Program-made: the position numbers and the translations under genes | Assembly: GCF_900101985.1 (NCBI RefSeq) | Contig: NZ_FNAR01000011.1 | Coordinates: forward strand, 1 to 64,000 | Source of the DNA: Bhargavaea beijingensis | Lineage (GTDB): Bacteria > Bacillota > Bacilli > Bacillales_A > Planococcaceae | Direction of reading: 5' to 3' | Length of the DNA stretch: 64,000 nucleotides | Part shown: piece after piece, positions 11,155 to 60,688 of the stretch | How the letters are laid out: each line of letters starts with the position of its first letter | Position numbering within the stretch: the first letter of the stretch is position 1 | The notes under the pieces: generated by a model | Database searches by the model: none | Told to the model about the DNA's origin: nothing | What the model saw: the letters and a program-made list of their open reading frames with translations, nothing else

Positions 11155-11496
11155 GTGGCATGGCTGTATGTGTTTTTCGCTGCCGTCGTCGAGGTATTCT
11201 GGGTGGTCGGCCTATCCTATTCCGACAGTGCCCTAGAATGGACCGGAACGGCAATCGCCATCATCTTCAGCTTTTATTTCATCATCAAGGCTTGTGAAAA
11301 ATTGCCTTCCGGGACGGTCTATGCCGTTTTCACCGGATCGGGAGCCGCGGCGATCGTCCTCGTGGATATCATCGTTTTCGGAGAGCCATTTTCGCCGGTC
11401 AAACTGTTTTTCATCGGCCTCATCCTGGTCGGCGTGGTCGGAATCAAGCTGACTGACGGCGGGGGCAAGCAAGAACAGGAAAGGGGTGAGCAGTGA
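11155..11496 (+). CDS. SMR-family transporter subunit (first of a pair)
   Basis: A 113-residue, four-helix small multidrug resistance protein. The membrane glutamate that couples export to protons lies in the first helix (AAVVEVFWVVGLSYSDS). The second helix segment IKACEKLPSGTVYAVFTGSG is typical of the family. Its stop codon overlaps the start of a second SMR gene by one base. Paired SMR genes usually make asymmetric heterodimers, and substrates range from quaternary amines to guanidinium. The roughly 100 nt upstream show no guanidine riboswitch. Start is GTG after AAAGAGGTGACGGCCG. Confidence 0.85.
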   Translation: MAWLYVFFAAVVEVFWVVGLSYSDSALEWTGTAIAIIFSFYFIIKACEKLPSGTVYAVFTGSGAAAIVLVDIIVFGEPFSPVKLFFIGLILVGVVGIKLTDGGGKQEQERGEQ

Positions 11497-11810
11497 TGGC
11501 ATGGGTATTCCTTGCACTTGCCAGTTTGGGTGAAATCTTTGGCGTCATGTTCATCAACCTCTACCTGAAAGACAAGCAATGGTGGCGGCTCATCCCGCTT
11601 GTCCTTACCTTCGGCCTCGGCTTTGTCCTTTTGTCCCTCGCCATGCGGGAGATTCCGATGGGAACCGCCTATGCCATCTGGACAGGCCTCGGAGCCGCGG
11701 GGGCCGTACTGATGGGCATCCTGTTTTTCAAGGAGCCTGCGGGATGGCGTCGGCTCCTGTTCATTTCGTTCATCATCACGGGAGCGGCCGGCCTAAAACT
11801 GTTCAGCTGA
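11496..11810 (+). CDS. SMR-family transporter subunit (second of a pair)
   Basis: A 104-residue, four-helix SMR protein. It has the coupling glutamate in LASLGEIFGVMFINLYL and the second-helix signature MREIPMGTAYAIWTGLGAAG. It starts at an ATG overlapping the TGA of its partner, with AAAGGGGTGAGCAGTG upstream. The arrangement resembles YkkC/YkkD and similar two-gene SMR exporters. The substrate cannot be told from sequence. Confidence 0.85.
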   Translation: MAWVFLALASLGEIFGVMFINLYLKDKQWWRLIPLVLTFGLGFVLLSLAMREIPMGTAYAIWTGLGAAGAVLMGILFFKEPAGWRRLLFISFIITGAAGLKLFS

Positions 11811-11860
11811 GAACCCTGTGGTAAAATGAAGTCAATCACATGTCGGAAAGGAAGATTCCT

Positions 11861-13051
11861 TTGGCTAAAACTTTGGATCAATTTCTTGAACAAAACTTGC
11901 AGGAGCTGCGAGGTGCAGGATTGTATAACGAAATCGACCCGGTAGAAGGGCCGAACGGGCCGACGATCAAGATCGGCGGAAAAGACCTGATCAACCTGAG
12001 TTCGAATAACTACCTTGGCCTTGCAACGGATGAAGAACTGAAAAAGCTTGCGAAGGACGCCATCGACAAGTACGGCGTCGGCGCGGGCGCTGTCCGGACC
12101 ATCAATGGCACACTCGATATCCACGTCCGGCTTGAGGAAAAGCTTGCCGAGTTCAAAGGGACCGAAGCGGCGATCGCTTACCAGTCCGGGTTCAACTGCA
12201 ACATGGCGGCCATCTCGGCGGTCATGGACAAAAACGATGCCATCCTCTCCGATGAGCTGAACCACGCATCGATTATCGACGGCTGCCGCCTGTCCCGGGC
12301 TAAAATCATCCGTGTCAACCACCAGGACATGGATGACCTCCGCAAAAAGGCGAAGGAAGCGACGGAGTCCGGTCAATACAACAAAGTCATGTACATCACG
12401 GATGGTGTATTCTCAATGGACGGAGATGTCGCCAACCTGCCGGATGCTGTACAGATTGCAAAGGAATACGACCTGATCACTTATGTGGATGATGCGCACG
12501 GTTCCGGCGTCATGGGCGGCGGGAAAGGCACCGTGAAGCACTTCGGCCTGGAGAAGGAGATCGACTTCCAGATCGGCACCCTCTCCAAAGCGATCGGCGT
12601 CGTCGGCGGTTATGTGGCAGGGAAGCGGCAATTGATCGACTGGCTGAAAGTCCGCTCCCGTCCGTTCCTGTTCTCGACTGCGATGACTCCGGGAGATGTT
12701 GCGGCGGTCATCGGGTCTGTCGACAAGCTGCTTGCATCCGACGAACTTGTGGACAAGCTGTGGGAAAACGGCGACTACCTGAAAGACGGCCTGAAAAAGT
12801 TGGGCTTTGATATCGGCCATTCCGAAACCCCGATCACGCCTTGCATCATCGGTGAGGAAAAGCTGACCCAGCAGTTTTCGAGACGCCTGATGGAAGAGGG
12901 CGTCTATGCAAAATCGATTGTCTTCCCGACTGTTCCACAAGGCACCGGCCGCGTCCGCAACATGCCGACGGCCGCGCACACGAAAGAGATGCTCGACGAA
13001 GCACTCGCCGTCTACGAGAAAATAGGCAAGGAACTGGGCGTCATCGGCTGA
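11861..13051 (+). CDS. kbl: Glycine C-acetyltransferase (2-amino-3-ketobutyrate CoA ligase)
   Basis: A 396-residue PLP enzyme of the alpha-oxoamine synthase family that converts 2-amino-3-oxobutyrate and CoA to glycine and acetyl-CoA, the second step of threonine breakdown. Motifs include [40 protein letters not shown] and the PLP-lysine segment [14 protein letters not shown]. The TTG at 11861 gives [11 protein letters not shown], the usual N-terminus, and follows GGAAAGGAAG. The ATG at 11840 would overlap that ribosome site. Its partner tdh is 1.4 kb away behind two opposite-strand genes rather than adjacent. Confidence 0.93.
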
Positions 13052-14337: not shown

Positions 14338-14422
14338 AACATTGAAATGCAGTGAAATCAGTGATTTATTTGAATAAAATGTCCGTTTCAAAAATACAAA
14401 TGGACGAATGGGAGTGACGGAG

Positions 14423-15373
14423 ATGAAGAAAATCATGGTGACCGGGGCGCTGGGACAGATCGGCTCGGAATTGACGGGTAAACTGAGGGGGCTATACGGC
14501 ACGGATCAGGTTCTCGCAACGGATATCCGGGTGCCGGAATCGGGACCGGCGCTTGACGGGCCCTTCGAGCAACTGGACGTTACCGACGGCAAACGCATGC
14601 ACGAGCTCGCCAAATCATTCGGGGCCGACACGATCATCCACATGGCCGCACTCCTGTCCGCGACGGCCGAGAAAAATCCGCTGTTCGCCTGGAACCTGAA
14701 TATGGGCGGACTTGTCAACGCGCTTGAGACCGCACGCGAACTGGATCTCCAGTTCTTTACCCCGAGCTCGATCGGCGCATTCGGCCCGAGCACGCCGAAG
14801 AAAAACACACCGCAAGACACGATCCAGCGCCCCACCACCATGTACGGGGTCAACAAAGTGTCCGGGGAACTGCTCTGCGACTATTACTTCGAGAAGTTCG
14901 GTGTGGATACCCGGGGCGTCCGGTTCCCGGGGCTCATCTCGTATGTGACACCTCCGGGCGGCGGAACGACCGACTATGCCGTCGATATCTATTACAAAGC
15001 GATAGAGGAAGGAAAGTATGCCTCGTTCATCGCAGAAGGCACCTACATGGACATGATGTACATGCCGGATGCGCTGCAGGCCATTGTTGACCTGATGGAA
15101 GCGGACCCGTCGAAACTGACCCACCGCAACGCGTTCAATGTGACCGCGATGAGCGTAGAGCCGTCCGATTTCGAAAAGGCGATCCGAACGCATATTCCGG
15201 ATTTCCAGCTTAATTACGACGTTGACCCGGTACGCCAGGCAATCGCCGAGAGCTGGCCGGATTCCATTGATCCATCCGCCGCAATTGCGGAATGGGGCTT
15301 CCAGGCCAAATACGACCTTGATAAAATGACAGCGGATATGCTCGAAAAACTTCGGGAAAAGCTGGGGAAATAA
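14423..15373 (+). CDS. L-threonine 3-dehydrogenase, SDR/epimerase type
   Basis: A 316-residue short-chain dehydrogenase that oxidises L-threonine to 2-amino-3-oxobutyrate with NAD+, the substrate of Kbl. The Rossmann start is [20 protein letters not shown]. The catalytic Ser/Tyr/Lys are in [15 protein letters not shown] and [13 protein letters not shown], and DAGS-type threonine dehydrogenases share [10 protein letters not shown]. This is the UDP-galactose-epimerase-like Tdh, not the zinc MDR type. The start at 14423 fits GGGAG at 8 nt. The in-frame ATG at 14408 overlaps it. Confidence 0.9.
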
Positions 15374-15375
15374 CC

Positions 15376-15438
15376 GGGTGTCAAGAAAACTGGGCTGAGT
15401 GTTAAGAAGCAGCTTCTGAGTGTTAAGCAAATTCCAAA
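15376..15438. repeat. Tandem 21-bp repeat, three units, directly after the tdh stop codon
   Basis: Units at 15376-15396, 15397-15417 and 15418-15438 share a left part, GGGTGTCAAGAA, GAGTGTTAAGAA and GAGTGTTAAGCA. The right parts differ (AACTGGGCT, GCAGCTTCT, AATTCCAAA). A fourth stretch to 15459 is only faintly similar. It lies 3 nt after the tdh stop codon and before its terminator, so it would be in the tdh 3' untranslated RNA. Confidence 0.6.
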
Positions 15439-18732: not shown

Positions 18733-19083
18733 TTAGTATGCGAATGGCGTCTCGCTCAATTGGAGCGCAACGGCGAGTTTGCCTTCGCCGTCGAGACCGG
18801 CCATGAGCAAGCGTCCGTGCTCATCAAGTTCATAATGGGTGATGCCTTGTGCGTACACCCAGCCATAAGGCAGTTTCAGCCCCACGCGGTGCGGAGCTTC
18901 GCCGACGACTTTGCCCAGTTCAAAGCGGATCTGGGCATTTCGGATGAAGGCGCCGGCGTTGAAGAATCCTTCGTTGAAATGGGCCGCATACGAACCGTTC
19001 GTCGTCTCCAAGTGGATGTAGAGCTCCTTGCCGGCGAACGAATCGATGAGGCGCTGAAGGTGTTCGGGATTCACTTTTTCCAT
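18733..19083 (-). CDS. yojF: YojF family protein (DUF1806)
   Basis: A 116-residue soluble protein (LQRLIDSFAGKELYIHLETT, AHFNEGFFNAGAFIRNAQIR, HRVGLKLPYGWVYAQGITHY). It matches YojF, a beta-rich protein of unknown function encoded next to bshB2 in Bacillus. The neighbourhood suggests a link to bacillithiol, but no activity is known. ATG follows GGAGGAGGCCTGAAAC. Confidence 0.85.
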   Translation of the reverse strand: MEKVNPEHLQRLIDSFAGKELYIHLETTNGSYAAHFNEGFFNAGAFIRNAQIRFELGKVVGEAPHRVGLKLPYGWVYAQGITHYELDEHGRLLMAGLDGEGKLAVALQLSETPFAY

Positions 19084-19191
19084 GTTTCAGGCCTCCTCCA
19101 GTTACCTATATCGTATTCAGTATAAAGAACATCAGCCGGGAATGCGAAAGGGGCGCTCCGCTGCGGTTGGATGATTTCTTGCCGATCCCAT

Positions 19192-19217
19192 CAAAAACGG
19201 CCGGGAATCCCGGCCGT
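19192..19217 (-). terminator. Terminator after pdxK
   Basis: ACGGCCGGGA pairs with TCCCGGCCGT (19197-19217), with AAAAA at 19192-19196 supplying the minus-strand T-tract. Confidence 0.8.
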
Positions 19218-19227
19218 CTGGCTTGCA

Positions 19228-20061
19228 TCAGATTTCAGTTACGGTGACTTCCGCCGGGCCGTGTTCATTTTTCGCGCCGTGCAGGACCGGGCCGACGTAC
19301 TTGTTCAACTTCCAACCGTGGGCGATCGCTGCAGCGACGAATTTTTTCGCCTCGACGACGGATTCCTCTACGCCGAGACCATTCGCGAGGTTGGCGGTGA
19401 TGGCAGCGGCAAATGTGCAGCCGGCCCCGTGTGTGTATAGCGTGTCCTGTTTTTCAGATTCCAGAAGAAGGAACTTGGAACCGTCATAGTAAAGGTCGGC
19501 CGCTTTGTCATGCTGGAGCTGCTTGCCGCCTTTGATAACGACGTGTTTTGCTCCGAGTTCGTGGATTTTCTCTGCGGCTTTCTTCAGGTCATCGATGGTC
19601 GTCAGCCTGCCGAAGCCGGAAAGCTGGCCGGCTTCAAACAGGTTCGGCGTGACGACTTCCGCGAGCGGAAGAAGGTATTCGACCATCGCACCGACCGTGC
19701 CAGGGTTCAGGACCTCGTCTTCGCCCTTGCATACCATGACCGGGTCGATGACCACATGATGGGTGCCGGATTCCCGGATTCCCTCTCCGGCTGTGCGGAT
19801 TACATCTTCTGTGCTCAGCATGCCGGTCTTTACCGCATCGATCCCGACGGAAAGCGCCGTCTTGAGCTGGGCTTTCAGGACATCGATCGGAAGTGTATAG
19901 ACGCCGTGGCTCCAGTAGTTGTCCGGGTCCATCGTCGCTACGACGGTGAGCGCGGTCATGCCGTATGTTCCGTGCTCCTGGAATGTTTTTAGGTCAGCTT
20001 GGATGCCGGCGCCGCCCGACGTATCGGATCCTGCGATGGTGAGTGTCTTTTTGAGTGTCAT
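19228..20061 (-). CDS. pdxK: Pyridoxal kinase, ThiD-like ribokinase fold
   Basis: A 277-residue kinase that phosphorylates pyridoxal/pyridoxine and related pyrimidines with ATP. The N-terminus KKTLTIAGSDTSGGAGIQAD, the middle VVIDPVMVCKGEDEVL and VVTPNLFEAGQLSG, and the ATP-site motif DTLYTHGAGCTFAAAITANL with the catalytic Asp replaced in position by the GAGC anion hole are typical of the PdxK/ThiD group of Firmicutes. These Bacillus-type enzymes are close to ThiD, so activity on HMP is a possible alternative. ATG follows AAAGGAGCCCTGACAC. Monocistronic. Confidence 0.85.
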   Translation of the reverse strand: MTLKKTLTIAGSDTSGGAGIQADLKTFQEHGTYGMTALTVVATMDPDNYWSHGVYTLPIDVLKAQLKTALSVGIDAVKTGMLSTEDVIRTAGEGIRESGTHHVVIDPVMVCKGEDEVLNPGTVGAMVEYLLPLAEVVTPNLFEAGQLSGFGRLTTIDDLKKAAEKIHELGAKHVVIKGGKQLQHDKAADLYYDGSKFLLLESEKQDTLYTHGAGCTFAAAITANLANGLGVEESVVEAKKFVAAAIAHGWKLNKYVGPVLHGAKNEHGPAEVTVTEI

Positions 20062-36289: not shown

Positions 36290-36556
36290 ATATCCGGCAT
36301 GACTTTTTGCCGGATGACGCTGAGGTGCCCCGAATCGCGGGGGTAAAAGGGAAGCCGGTGAAAGTCCGGCACGGTCCCGCCACTGTAAGCGGCTATACGC
36401 CGCAAGTCAGGAAACCTGCCCCAGCGGAAAGCACCTGAATGCGCCTGCGAGGACAGGCCGGTGTGGAACGGCGCCTGCATGAGCAGGCTGCGGTCGTTTT
36501 TCCGCGTGCCCGTCCTGCCGGTATTTCTGCCCCCCGCGTCGCGCGGGGGTTTTTTC
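36290..36556 (+). promoter_or_regulatory. Cobalamin (AdoCbl) riboswitch with terminator
   Basis: A 5' hairpin (ATCCGGCA/TGCCGGAT, 36292-36315) leads to the aptamer core: GAGGTGCC (36322), GGTAAAAGGGAAGCCGGTG (36342), AAAGTCCGGCACGGTCCC (36361), GCCACTGTAAGC (36379) and AAGTCAGGAAACCTGCC (36404), which includes the B12 box. The expression platform ends in CCCCCGCG/CGCGGGGG (36531-36549) and a T-tract to 36555, just before btuF. B12 binding should favour termination and shut off the 13-gene operon. It fills most of the 36111-36589 gap. Confidence 0.95.
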
Positions 36557-51646: not shown

Positions 51647-52783
51647 ATGGATTTTACATTCAACGAAGAGCAGAACATGATGCGCCGGATGGTGCGCGAC
51701 TTTGCGAAAAACGAGGTGGAACCGTTTATCCCCCGGATGGAGGCCGGCGAGTTCCCGCGTCCGCTGCTTGAAAAGATGGGGGAGCTCGGGCTTATGGGCA
51801 TCACGGTGCCCGAAAAGTATGGCGGCTCCGGAATGGACTACACCAGCTACATCATTGCAATCCATGAGCTGTCCAAAGCAAGCGCCGTCATGGGTGTGAT
51901 CCTGAGCGTCCATACGTCGGTCGGCATCAACCCGATCCTGAAGTTCGGGACGGAAGAGCAGAAACAGGAGTATATCCCGAAGATGGCGTCGGGCGAGTAT
52001 CTCGGCGCATTCTGCCTCACCGAGCCGTCCTCGGGATCTGATGCCGGCGCGATGAAGACAAAGGCCGTAAAAAAAGACGGCCACTACGTGCTGAACGGTT
52101 CCAAAGTGTTTATCACGAACGGGGGCGAGGCGGATGTCTACATCGTTTTTGCCAACACGAATCCGGCAGCGGGAAGCCGCGGCGTCACGGCGTTTATCGT
52201 CGATAAAGGCACGCCGGGCCTCGTCATCGGCAAGGACGAGGAGAAGATGGGCCTCCACGGCTCCCGCACCGTCCAGCTGACGTTCGAGGACATGAGCGTG
52301 CCGGAGAATAACGTGCTCGGCCAGGAAGGCGAAGGATTCAAGATCGCCCTCGCCAACCTGGACGCCGGCCGGATCGGCATTGCCGCCCAGTCGCTCGGTA
52401 TCGCGGAAGCCGCGACCGAAGCGGCCGTCACTTATGCAAAGGAACGGGTGCAGTTTGGCAAGCCGATTGCGGCAAACCAGGGAATTGGCTTCAAGCTCGC
52501 CGACATGGCGACATCTGTGGAAGCGGCACGTCTTCTCGTCTACCAGGCGGCCGACCTGTACGGCCGCGGCCTGCCCGCCGGCAAGGAAGCCTCGATGGCA
52601 AAACTGTTCGCCTCCCAGGCGGCCATGGACTGCGCCATCGAAGGCGTCCAAGTCTACGGCGGTTACGGCTACACTGAAGACTACCCTGTGGAACGCTATT
52701 TCCGCGATGCGAAAGTGACGCAGATCTATGAAGGCACGAGCGAGATCCAGCGGATGGTCATCAGCAAACATCTCACAAAGTGA
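51647..52783 (+). CDS. Acyl-CoA dehydrogenase (first copy)
   Basis: A 378-residue FAD enzyme making the first oxidation of acyl-CoA. FAD/substrate motifs AFCLTEPSSGSDAGAMKTKA, the catalytic Glu segment QIYEGTSEIQRMVISKHL and [20 protein letters not shown] are intact. Short-chain or branched-chain preference is likely but not readable. Start ATG 51647 after AGAGGTGCACACC. A 224-nt gap with a 21-bp repeat array separates it from its paralogue. Confidence 0.92.
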   Translation: MDFTFNEEQNMMRRMVRDFAKNEVEPFIPRMEAGEFPRPLLEKMGELGLMGITVPEKYGGSGMDYTSYIIAIHELSKASAVMGVILSVHTSVGINPILKFGTEEQKQEYIPKMASGEYLGAFCLTEPSSGSDAGAMKTKAVKKDGHYVLNGSKVFITNGGEADVYIVFANTNPAAGSRGVTAFIVDKGTPGLVIGKDEEKMGLHGSRTVQLTFEDMSVPENNVLGQEGEGFKIALANLDAGRIGIAAQSLGIAEAATEAAVTYAKERVQFGKPIAANQGIGFKLADMATSVEAARLLVYQAADLYGRGLPAGKEASMAKLFASQAAMDCAIEGVQVYGGYGYTEDYPVERYFRDAKVTQIYEGTSEIQRMVISKHLTK

Positions 52784-52837
52784 GAGGCTCTGCGCCCACA
52801 AGCGGGCGTTGGGGCGAATCTCCTGGCCCGGCGGCAT

Positions 52838-52921
52838 GAAAGATCAGAAAGGGCGGCCGAAAGATAATGAAGCCACGGCGAAAGATCAGAACCGGGCCGT
52901 GAATGATCAACAAGGCTGCCG
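52838..52921. repeat. Tandem 21-bp repeat, four units, between the two acyl-CoA dehydrogenase genes
   Basis: Units start at 52838, 52859, 52880 and 52901. The left parts are GAAAGATCAGAA, GAAAGATAATGA, GAAAGATCAGAA and GAATGATCAACA; the right nine bases vary (AGGGCGGCC, AGCCACGGC, CCGGGCCGT, AGGCTGCCG). A weak fifth unit may precede. It lies 54 nt after a stop codon. No terminator is seen in this gap, so it is probably transcribed. An 86-residue frame crosses it but overlaps the upstream gene and has no ribosome site. Confidence 0.75.
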
Positions 52922-53007
52922 CCTGCCGGTTGCTGCGCCCCGTATCACGCGCCCTATAAAAGGACTAATAAACGGCCCGGCCGATTGACCGAAAGGTGGA
53001 AAACAAA

Positions 53008-54147
53008 ATGAACTTTAAATTGTCCGAAGAACATGAAATGATCCGGAAAATGGTGCGCGACTTTGCAGAAAAGGATGTCGCGCCGACAGCGGCGGAGCGC
53101 GATGAGGAAGAGCGCTTCGACGTGGAGCTGTTCCACAAGATGGCTGAGCTCGGCCTTACAGGCATTCCTTGGCCTGAAGAGTACGGGGGCATCGGTTCGG
53201 ATTTCCTCGCATACGTCATCGCTGTCGAGGAGCTTTCCCGCGTCGATGCGTCCGCAGGTGTTGTCCTGTCGGCGCATACATCGCTTGCCGGCTGGCCGGT
53301 CTATAAATACGGCACGGAAGAGCAGAAGCAGAAGTATCTCCGTCCGATGGCGGAAGGCTCGAAAATCGGGGCTTACTGCCTGACGGAAGCGGGCTCAGGT
53401 TCTGATGCGGGCGGCATGAAGACGACCGCGAAAAAGGATGGCGACCATTACATTCTGAACGGTTCCAAGATGTTCATCACGAACGGAGGGATTGCCGACA
53501 CGTACATCGTGTTCGCAGTCACCGACCCATCCTCGAAGCACAAAGGCACGAGCGCATTTATCGTAGAAAGTGATTTTGAAGGCTTCGCGGTCGGTAAAAA
53601 GGAGAAAAAGCTGGGCATCCGTTCGTCCCCGACAACAGAAGTCATCTTTGACAACTGCAGAGTCCCTGCCGAAAACCTGCTTGGCGAAGAGGGCCAGGGA
53701 TTCATCATCGCCATGAAAACACTGGACGGTGGCCGTAACGGTATTGCGGCACAAGCGGTGGGCATTGCGCAAGGCGCGCTTGACCACTCGGTTGCCTACG
53801 CGAAGGAGCGCGAGCAGTTCGGCAAGCCGATCGCGGCAAACCAGGGCATCGGCTTCAAGCTCGCTGATATGGCAACTTCGATCGAGGCGTCCCGACTGCT
53901 CACTTATCAGGCAGCTTGGCTCGAGTCGAACGGCCTCCCGTACGGCAAGGAGTCCGCAATGGCGAAACTCATGGCTGGCGACACGGCGATGAACGTTACG
54001 ACGGAGGCGGTCCAGGTGTACGGCGGGTACGGCTATACGAAAGATTATCCGGTCGAGCGCTTTATGCGTGATGCGAAAATCACGCAGATTTACGAGGGCA
54101 CACAGGAGATCCAGCGCCTCGTCATCTCCCGTATGCTGACAAAATGA
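53008..54147 (+). CDS. Acyl-CoA dehydrogenase (second copy)
   Basis: A 379-residue FAD-dependent acyl-CoA dehydrogenase, clearly paralogous to the preceding one. Motifs: [40 protein letters not shown] and the catalytic Glu in [18 protein letters not shown]. FadF-linked AcdA is the Bacillus counterpart of one of the two. ATG at 53008 follows GAAAGGTGG. Its stop overlaps the TetR gene start (ATGA). Confidence 0.92.
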
Positions 54148-58329: not shown

Positions 58330-58401
58330 CGGTGGCATAGCGGGAACCCGATTGTATATAATGGTGATTATGCCAACGCATGCAGAAAGGACGTGCTCCT
58401 G

Positions 58402-60688
<2,287 letters not shown>

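Follow-up and report, generated by a model that had tools for sequence, protein, structure and literature searches.

Two arrays in the window

The window analysed here is a stretch of 64,000 nucleotides from Bhargavaea beijingensis (assembly GCF_900101985.1, contig NZ_FNAR01000011.1, positions 1 to 64,000). At 52838-52921 it carries a short tandem array of direct repeats, and arrays of this design, together with the NERD-domain proteins encoded beside many of them, are the subject of this work. The array consists of four units of exactly 21 bp, as a sequence-only reading of the window had described, and Tandem Repeats Finder detects it with period 21 and just 68% matches. It begins 54 bp past the stop codon ending at 52783, in the intergenic slot between two acyl-CoA dehydrogenase genes, the upstream one of which we take to be mmgC and the downstream one presumably acdA. 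A second array with the same period and another motif, also noticed in that reading, was found again and became the key clue. It directly abuts the stop codon of an open reading frame (ORF) on the plus strand at 14408-15373, whose product is an SDR epimerase-type protein according to Pfam; the name tdh, which the reading gave to this gene, is therefore plausible only. The features concerned are the following.

15374-15436, plus strand: second array, 21-bp period, family B core GAGTGTTAAGMAA, three units, the first degenerate
51647-52783, plus strand: acyl-CoA dehydrogenase gene upstream of the window array (Pfam acyl-CoA dehydrogenase domains)
52784-53007, no strand: intergenic slot between the two acyl-CoA dehydrogenase genes, compared in eight Bhargavaea genomes
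52838-52858, plus strand: array unit 1, GAAAGATCAGAAAGGGCGGCC, with core GAAAGATCAGAA and a variable part; matches family A
52859-52879, plus strand: array unit 2, GAAAGATAATGAAGCCACGGC, with core GAAAGATAATGA and a variable part
52880-52900, plus strand: array unit 3, GAAAGATCAGAACCGGGCCGT, with core GAAAGATCAGAA and a variable part
52901-52921, plus strand: array unit 4, GAATGATCAACAAGGCTGCCG, with core GAATGATCAACA and a variable part
53008-54147, plus strand: second acyl-CoA dehydrogenase gene, downstream of the array (Pfam acyl-CoA dehydrogenase domains)

The division of each unit into a constant left and a variable right part, likewise proposed from the window, is borne out by a wider sample. 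In a set of 124 distinct units from five species, picked by positions 1-9 with at most two mismatches, positions 1-9 and 12 carry 1.36-1.93 bits of information, position 13 carries 0.83 bits, position 14 carries 0.60 bits and the remainder carry 0.11-0.40 bits. The conservation of positions 1-9 is partly there by construction, as these positions were the selection criterion; positions 12 and 13 are independent of it, and because they are conserved without having served for selection, the core is about 13 bp long rather than nine. When 15 pairs of orthologous arrays were compared, some of them sharing a member, core positions 1-9 and 12 were identical at 595 of 628 sites (94.7%), spacer positions 13-21 at 368 of 545 (67.5%) and the flanks at 1075 of 1647 (65.3%), with the caution that units paired out of register would likewise give high core identity. 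With the core held and spacer identity close to that of the flanks, the spacers appear to evolve as ordinary intergenic DNA and to be inherited with their locus, which argues against both a spacer-acquiring array and a freshly copied satellite.

Two other explanations of the repeats were considered and rejected. An ORF of 86 amino acids spans the window array, but the core is conserved without a codon pattern, and the intergenic location of arrays on either strand also speaks against a coding origin. Hairpins joining neighbouring spacers were noticed by eye in one locus (L002) and are absent from the other arrays inspected by eye.

NERD genes beside the arrays

The first dense arrays examined flanked genes recognised as encoding NERD proteins. 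A search with the NERD profile (PF08378) gave 8-13 matches in each of the eight Bhargavaea genomes that make up the comparison genus (G000-G007, among which G000 is the window genome, G001 is Bhargavaea sp. CC-171006, G006 is B. massiliensis and G007 is B. cecembensis DSE10). The array-linked proteins form a family in which a NERD domain is combined with a zinc ribbon and a putative winged helix-turn-helix (wHTH), the latter assigned by hand from secondary structure. Its 64 full-length members have 264-445 amino acids and were left from 68 profile hits after the duplicate loci L352, L353 and L207 and one fragment of 166 amino acids had been removed; a longer type of NERD protein, with 546-662 amino acids, does not match the profile of this family. 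The number of such genes per Bhargavaea genome is 7-10; most of them occupy conserved loci, and their cores differ.

Arrays near these genes were called where three units had 0.52, or four units 0.43, of their columns conserved. By this rule, a 20- or 21-bp array lies within 1.2 kb of 55 of the 64 NERD genes, against 11 of 175 control windows (Fisher p 3e-33); the control windows were of the same size, were subject to the same rule and came from 20 stretches of five genomes, with the windows beside the NERD genes of L246 and L263 excluded. Arrays stand on both sides of 26 of the 55 genes and on one side of 29. Other periods were also encountered near the NERD genes, with period 15 in nine genes, period 18 in five, and periods 14, 24 and 30 in a single gene each. 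Of the 18 syntenic groups, 15 include an array-bearing member. Where an array was called, its median distance is 163 bp upstream of the called start (31 genes) or 29 bp downstream of the stop (50 genes). The arrays on the two sides of one gene are inverted in 16 of 26 cases, parallel in nine (one of these nearly even) and tied in one. The candidate partner gene of family A lies outside the window, on contig C28 of G000 at about 15.3-16.4 kb, where it adjoins a valS-like gene (named by eye) and is placed between arrays of the same core.

Two features of the genes themselves may be recorded here. The family-A NERD protein at L116 (4019-5056) extends with its C-terminus into its own downstream array, where it ends in KDQYGSLKDHQPAAKDH. 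An AT-rich 8-mer, CAAAATTG / CAATTTTG, is found at 28 of the 64 NERD gene starts (-260 to +120 bp; for example, in L336, L246 and L303) and not at all in locally shuffled copies, and is possibly a common operator of NERD genes.

The link between NERD genes and arrays extends to other genera and families of Bacilli, for which short NERD loci and the rarity of other periods served as controls. Arrays were called at 17 of 20 long-form NERD genes hand-picked from 16 genera of the same family; these 17 score at least 165 bits, and the three without arrays score 78-88. Among the 30 best NERD loci, which mostly encode short NERD proteins, five have arrays, one of them copying an already counted long-form gene. 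A class-wide profile search matched 116 of 299 genomes at E 0.001. In a set of 28 loci from this search, with the Bhargavaea loci L404 and L405 excluded and one gene overlapping the long-form set, 20/21-bp arrays were detected at 21 of 22 loci in the same family and at five of six in other families.

The partner proteins have the features of a nuclease. All seven of those searched match Pfam NERD, none matches a transposase family in Pfam, and NCBIfam gives no family above its cut-off. Across 50 aligned members, D75, K90, Q124, G147 and three cysteines are invariant, with E40, E88 and a fourth cysteine nearly so, and these residues indicate that the PD-(D/E)XK-type site is intact and that a zinc ribbon is present; the combination by which PD-(D/E)XK enzymes are recognised, a conserved D and ExK on a restriction-nuclease-like fold, is found in the family. 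An AlphaFold2 model of the family-A partner (mean pLDDT 94) was compared with known structures by VIA-align, where its neighbours are mostly PD-(D/E)XK-type nucleases, Can2 first (Z 9.6, root-mean-square deviation 3.2, 124 residues), with a Z that barely exceeds the tool's typical value for models without a clear match and with the C-terminal domains hardly covered. A Foldseek search against the PDB returned nothing at E ≤0.001, its best weak matches being mostly restriction-type nucleases. With regard to a phage or plasmid origin, a tblastn search of the partner against plasmids gave nothing at E 1e-5.

Cores across genomes, loci and proteins

The sequence-only reading had staked its case on further arrays with the same motif and period, and many were found. 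In the window genome, a two-unit family-A pattern with at most three mismatches gives 26 matches, all belonging to dispersed arrays of 2-5 units, and its reversed control gives none. A related family-A pattern of period 21 has 28 matches in G000, 25 in G006, 24 in G007, six in G001 and two in G003, and is absent from G002, G004 and G005; outside the genus, five of 53 genomes contain a single match, in each case with two mismatches, and single matches to the reversed control occur in four of 61 genomes. At period 22, a similar pattern has no match in any of the eight Bhargavaea genomes and one match each in two other genomes. When genome contigs were scanned for family A, 28 of 43 stretches lay in other organisms and were taken as chance or unrelated repeats, and nine stretches were found in viral contigs.

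Several different cores in Bhargavaea have the 21-bp period in common. Family B, the core of the second array in the window, has 47 matches in G002, 36 in G004, 23 in G000, and six, two and two in three others; family C has 13 in G006 and 1-4 in four other Bhargavaea genomes; and neither was found in 143 genomes outside Bhargavaea. Family D, searched within the genus, has 55 matches, in G004 only. The reversed controls for families B, C and D gave no match. A scan of periods 14-30 bp across 226 kb around family-A loci returned only period 21 (23 hits), and one across 134 kb around B/D loci returned 43 hits at 21 versus one at 15, many of them with further cores, the loci of both scans having been chosen for their arrays. 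In 400 kb of Bhargavaea stretches unselected for arrays, a four-unit scan gave 17 hits at period 20, 14 at period 21 and four in total at others, and codon-block shuffles of the same 400 kb gave none; long arrays are counted repeatedly in all of these numbers. In a rough control on the stretches from other organisms and viruses, period 21 is the commonest too, with eight hits against 14 for other periods combined, in a set that is biased by the preselection of its loci for 21-bp spacing.

Some further features were seen along the way. In the window, acidic coding repeats with periods of 3-18 at 58700-58945, at the end of the ORF 58393-58947, are picked up by the period-21 scan as well, owing to their codon structure; a cobalamin riboswitch (86 bits) lies at 36306-36437. 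In G004, exact tandem duplications (100% identity, about 1.0-1.2 kb) adjoin arrays at L208 2571-4587 and at L209 1-2401 and 2893-4983, and represent either array-linked amplification or an assembly artefact. In a genome of another genus (G016), the locus L265 contains period-21 arrays of several hundred bases at about 11260-11940 and 18885-19870, with a core like TTTCGTGCG / ATTCGTGCGGATAC, and in places these alternate two unit types to give a 42-bp higher order.

A comparison of NERD proteins with the arrays beside them shows that the core co-varies with the protein. A core 7-mer is in common in 96% of 24 pairs at a protein distance below 0.3, in 70% of 20 pairs at 0.3-0.6 and in about 3% of 1231 pairs above 0.6; over 51 genes, the Mantel rho between core and protein distance is 0.25, a value reached in 0 of 5000 permutations. 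All seven genes that have 20-bp arrays belong to a single clade of eight (support 1.0, in a tree of 64 leaves), and the period, too, thus follows the protein. The loci are mostly vertically inherited, with 13 syntenic groups, two of which have a member in all eight genomes, and five unlinked genes. The core varies among syntenic orthologs, to the extent that one group with a member in each of the eight genomes has five cores. The syntenic group of the family-A partner has GAAAGATCANYAA in G000 and G007, GAAAGTACACWAA in G003, GAGNYTGCAYRTT in G006, an AGACCARGC-type core in G001 and G005, and GAATAGATAGAAT in G002 and G004.

The part of the protein that changes with the core is the putative wHTH. 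With core labels assigned by hand, syntenic orthologs with a nuclease-domain identity of 70-85% have a wHTH identity of 0.79 in 20 same-core pairs and of 0.28 in six different-core pairs; at a nuclease-domain identity of 55-70%, the values are 0.79 (two same-core pairs) and 0.49 (25 different-core pairs). The core GAATAGATAGAA was read solely from the NERD flanks of G002 and G004, and its restriction to those two genomes was predicted beforehand. At the 21-bp period it has 23 matches in G002 and 79 in G004 (seven and six of them, respectively, at NERD loci), and none in the six other Bhargavaea genomes or in the controls.

The slot that holds the window array gives a view of such changes at a single place. 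It contains arrays of differing cores, all with period 21, in six of the eight Bhargavaea genomes and none in two. Family A occupies it in G000 and G007, a core GAGATTACACGTT array stands immediately upstream of family A in G006, and the arrays of G003, G001 and G004 have the core GAAAGTACACMA, a GAGATTGCACG-like (C-like) core and the core AGATACRCAACGTT, respectively. The slot of G005 is just 90 bp long, and that of G002 (L149), which has no array, instead repeats a GTGAGATGTTCTGCG-like stretch taken from the upstream gene's end. The core of the G003 slot array is that of G003's own ortholog of the family-A partner gene, and in G006 the core beside family A resembles that of the G006 ortholog; this ortholog-like core is presumably newer than family A.

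Function of the arrays and related systems

The window array is probably one dispersed copy of a binding-site ladder of a chromosomal protein with NERD, zinc-ribbon and wHTH domains. That the NERD proteins are the partners of the arrays, and the arrays their predicted binding sites, is likely. A ladder of protein-binding sites in which each unit spans two helical turns, one of the roles suggested in the sequence-only reading, appears well supported at the sequence level by the conserved core, the period of 21 or 20 bp and the wHTH that tracks the core. The wHTH would read the 13-bp core, with one protein copy per unit, and because 21 bp is two helical turns, the copies are proposed to be aligned on one face of the DNA. 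The PD-(D/E)XK-type NERD domain may nick or otherwise process the DNA at arrays, and this action, or the subsequent repair, may seed and maintain arrays in intergenic space, as the RAYT enzymes are similarly thought to seed and maintain their repetitive extragenic palindromic sequences (REPs). Seeding by the nuclease is a tentative proposal. Autoregulation of the NERD genes is likely, given the median position of the upstream arrays. A mobile mini-repeat, another of the roles suggested at the outset, is a possible description of the array.

An architectural or regulatory function of the NERD proteins, with the arrays as immobile roadblocks, insulators or expression-tuning sites that arose by slippage and point mutation, seems rather unlikely. 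It would suit the conservation of core positions and the placing of arrays close to the ends of genes and ahead of the NERD genes; however, all 50 aligned proteins retain the catalytic D and K, for which a purely architectural role would have no need, and entire site families switch core between sister species, unlike a regulon. A system of defence or self-recognition, in which the nuclease cuts according to the presence or absence of arrays and an arms race drives the turnover of specificity, is improbable. Can2, McrC and other defence nucleases are indeed among the fold neighbours, and cores change at conserved loci; there are also weak matches in the NERD region to MADS6 of NCBIfam in two of five proteins (E 5.5e-6 and 1.8e-4, far below cut-off) and, in the common NERD region, to PglW of PADLOC in one of five (E 4.6e-4). 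Yet PADLOC finds nothing in the other four proteins, most loci are syntenic and not in variable islands, and the arrays sit in the host's own chromosome.

The 26 of 64 genes with arrays on both sides could also be explained if the NERD gene were cargo inserting into pre-existing arrays, but the genes are fixed in place across species while the surrounding cores change (in one syntenic group, a member in eight of eight genomes and five cores), and the cargo reading is very improbable. An mRNA 3' element or an RNA-binding ladder, which the sequence-only reading had also raised, is equally remote. On the coding strand, each of the two arrays in the window comes after a stop codon, but the orientation of arrays relative to neighbouring genes is mixed, those of L119 and L140 being antisense to both neighbours (heuristic ORFs), and the 20/21-bp period suits the DNA helix. 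No unusual folding was seen, the window array region folding no better than shuffles (z -0.49), and Rfam gives no match there at gathering thresholds and one below them (9.9 bits, E 2.4).

Several observations weigh against the preferred reading of the arrays as ladders seeded and bound by NERD proteins. Binding, cutting and array movement are inferred only, and a precise insertion footprint of arrays was not identified. The mixed orientation of flanking arrays and the tendency of the genes to stay in place argue against the arrays as simple transposon ends. Nine of the 64 NERD genes have no array call, several of them with degenerate or longer-period repeats by eye. Conversely, some arrays are without a nameable resident partner, namely family B in G000, the C-like slot array of G001 and the 20-bp arrays of G004 in L255/L256. 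Decay of partnerless arrays is only suggested by the fraction of perfect cores, which is 0.67 for family B in G000 versus 0.81 and 1.00 elsewhere, and 0.45-0.50 for family A in G001/G003 versus 0.59 in G000 and 0.75 in G007; in G006 this fraction is 0.74, although the ortholog there has another core. At a nuclease-domain identity of 85-100%, same-core and different-core pairs differ little in wHTH identity (0.87 in 14 of the former versus 0.73 in four of the latter). Finally, the window array compared with that of G006 is an exception to the usual pattern of identities, with 35 of 40 conserved positions, 33 of 36 spacer positions and 83 of 120 flank positions identical.

In its widest form, which can be offered only as a conjecture, the ladder reading would have about eight resident nuclease-fold proteins each writing and maintaining their own helically phased 20/21-bp ladders, class-wide, with the code swapped at a fixed locus between sister species. 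If true, this would be a self-renewing, sequence-specific marking of the chromosome run by NERD nucleases, whose sites spread in the manner of a gene drive. NERD is a common bacterial domain of unexplained biochemical role, and both it and short intergenic direct repeats, of which the STAR elements are another example in want of an explanation, now gain a testable partner. Each long-form NERD protein would have a site code of its own that can be read in its flanks, and the protein-code pairs with code switches between syntenic orthologs offer a natural data set for DNA reading by winged helices, and also for how genome-wide site sets are replaced.

Among known systems, the iterons of plasmid Rep proteins likewise span about two helical turns per direct repeat and are recognised by a winged-helix protein; they are located at an origin, whereas the ladders are chromosome-wide and have a variable half. 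CRISPR arrays have repeats of at least 20 bp separated by longer acquired spacers. The sequence-only reading had judged the window array not to be CRISPR-like, and this agrees with the core of about 13 bp followed by 8 bp and with spacers that are inherited with the locus and drift like the flanks (no search for cas genes was made). The NERD domain PF08378 is also present in SmdA of Staphylococcus aureus, before which, according to the available text, the actual function of NERD had not been studied experimentally (PMC9040797); in comparison with SmdA and other NERD proteins, the family described here adds a zinc ribbon, a wHTH and linked arrays. A literature search, with subscription papers largely outside its scope, gave no link between NERD proteins and such repeats, and at the level of titles and abstracts gave no such ladders in Bacilli besides the paper on the STAR elements of staphylococci. 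These elements are the nearest repeat design in Bacilli encountered in that search. Like the ladders, they are intergenic direct repeats with a conserved motif and locus-specific spacers, and their function, origin and spread are stated to be unknown in the accessible part of the paper, in which the word 'nuclease' is absent (PMC3532100). The STAR motif is the 14-bp T(G/A/T)TGTTG(G/T)GGCCC(C/A), with at least 40 bp between copies, as given in the same accessible part (PMC3532100); with a core of about 13 bp of other sequence and a 21-bp period, the ladders are not STAR elements.

The closest likeness is to REPs and their RAYTs. RAYTs are single-copy genes and are not known to be mobile. As described in the available text of PMC3116915, the enzyme gene is flanked by paired repeats with many dispersed extragenic copies, and the phylogeny of the enzyme is largely congruent with that of the species. 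The arrays described here likewise flank their partner gene, are dispersed and have a partner-specific sequence. However, RAYT is a Y1 HUH enzyme and the partner here is a NERD protein of PD-(D/E)XK type, and REPs are palindromic hairpins, in contrast to direct, non-palindromic 20/21-bp ladders with a variable half. Lacking both an HUH enzyme and palindromic repeats, the ladders are not members of the REP/RAYT group, and NERD ladders are best read as a system that would work like REP/RAYT and is unrelated to it.
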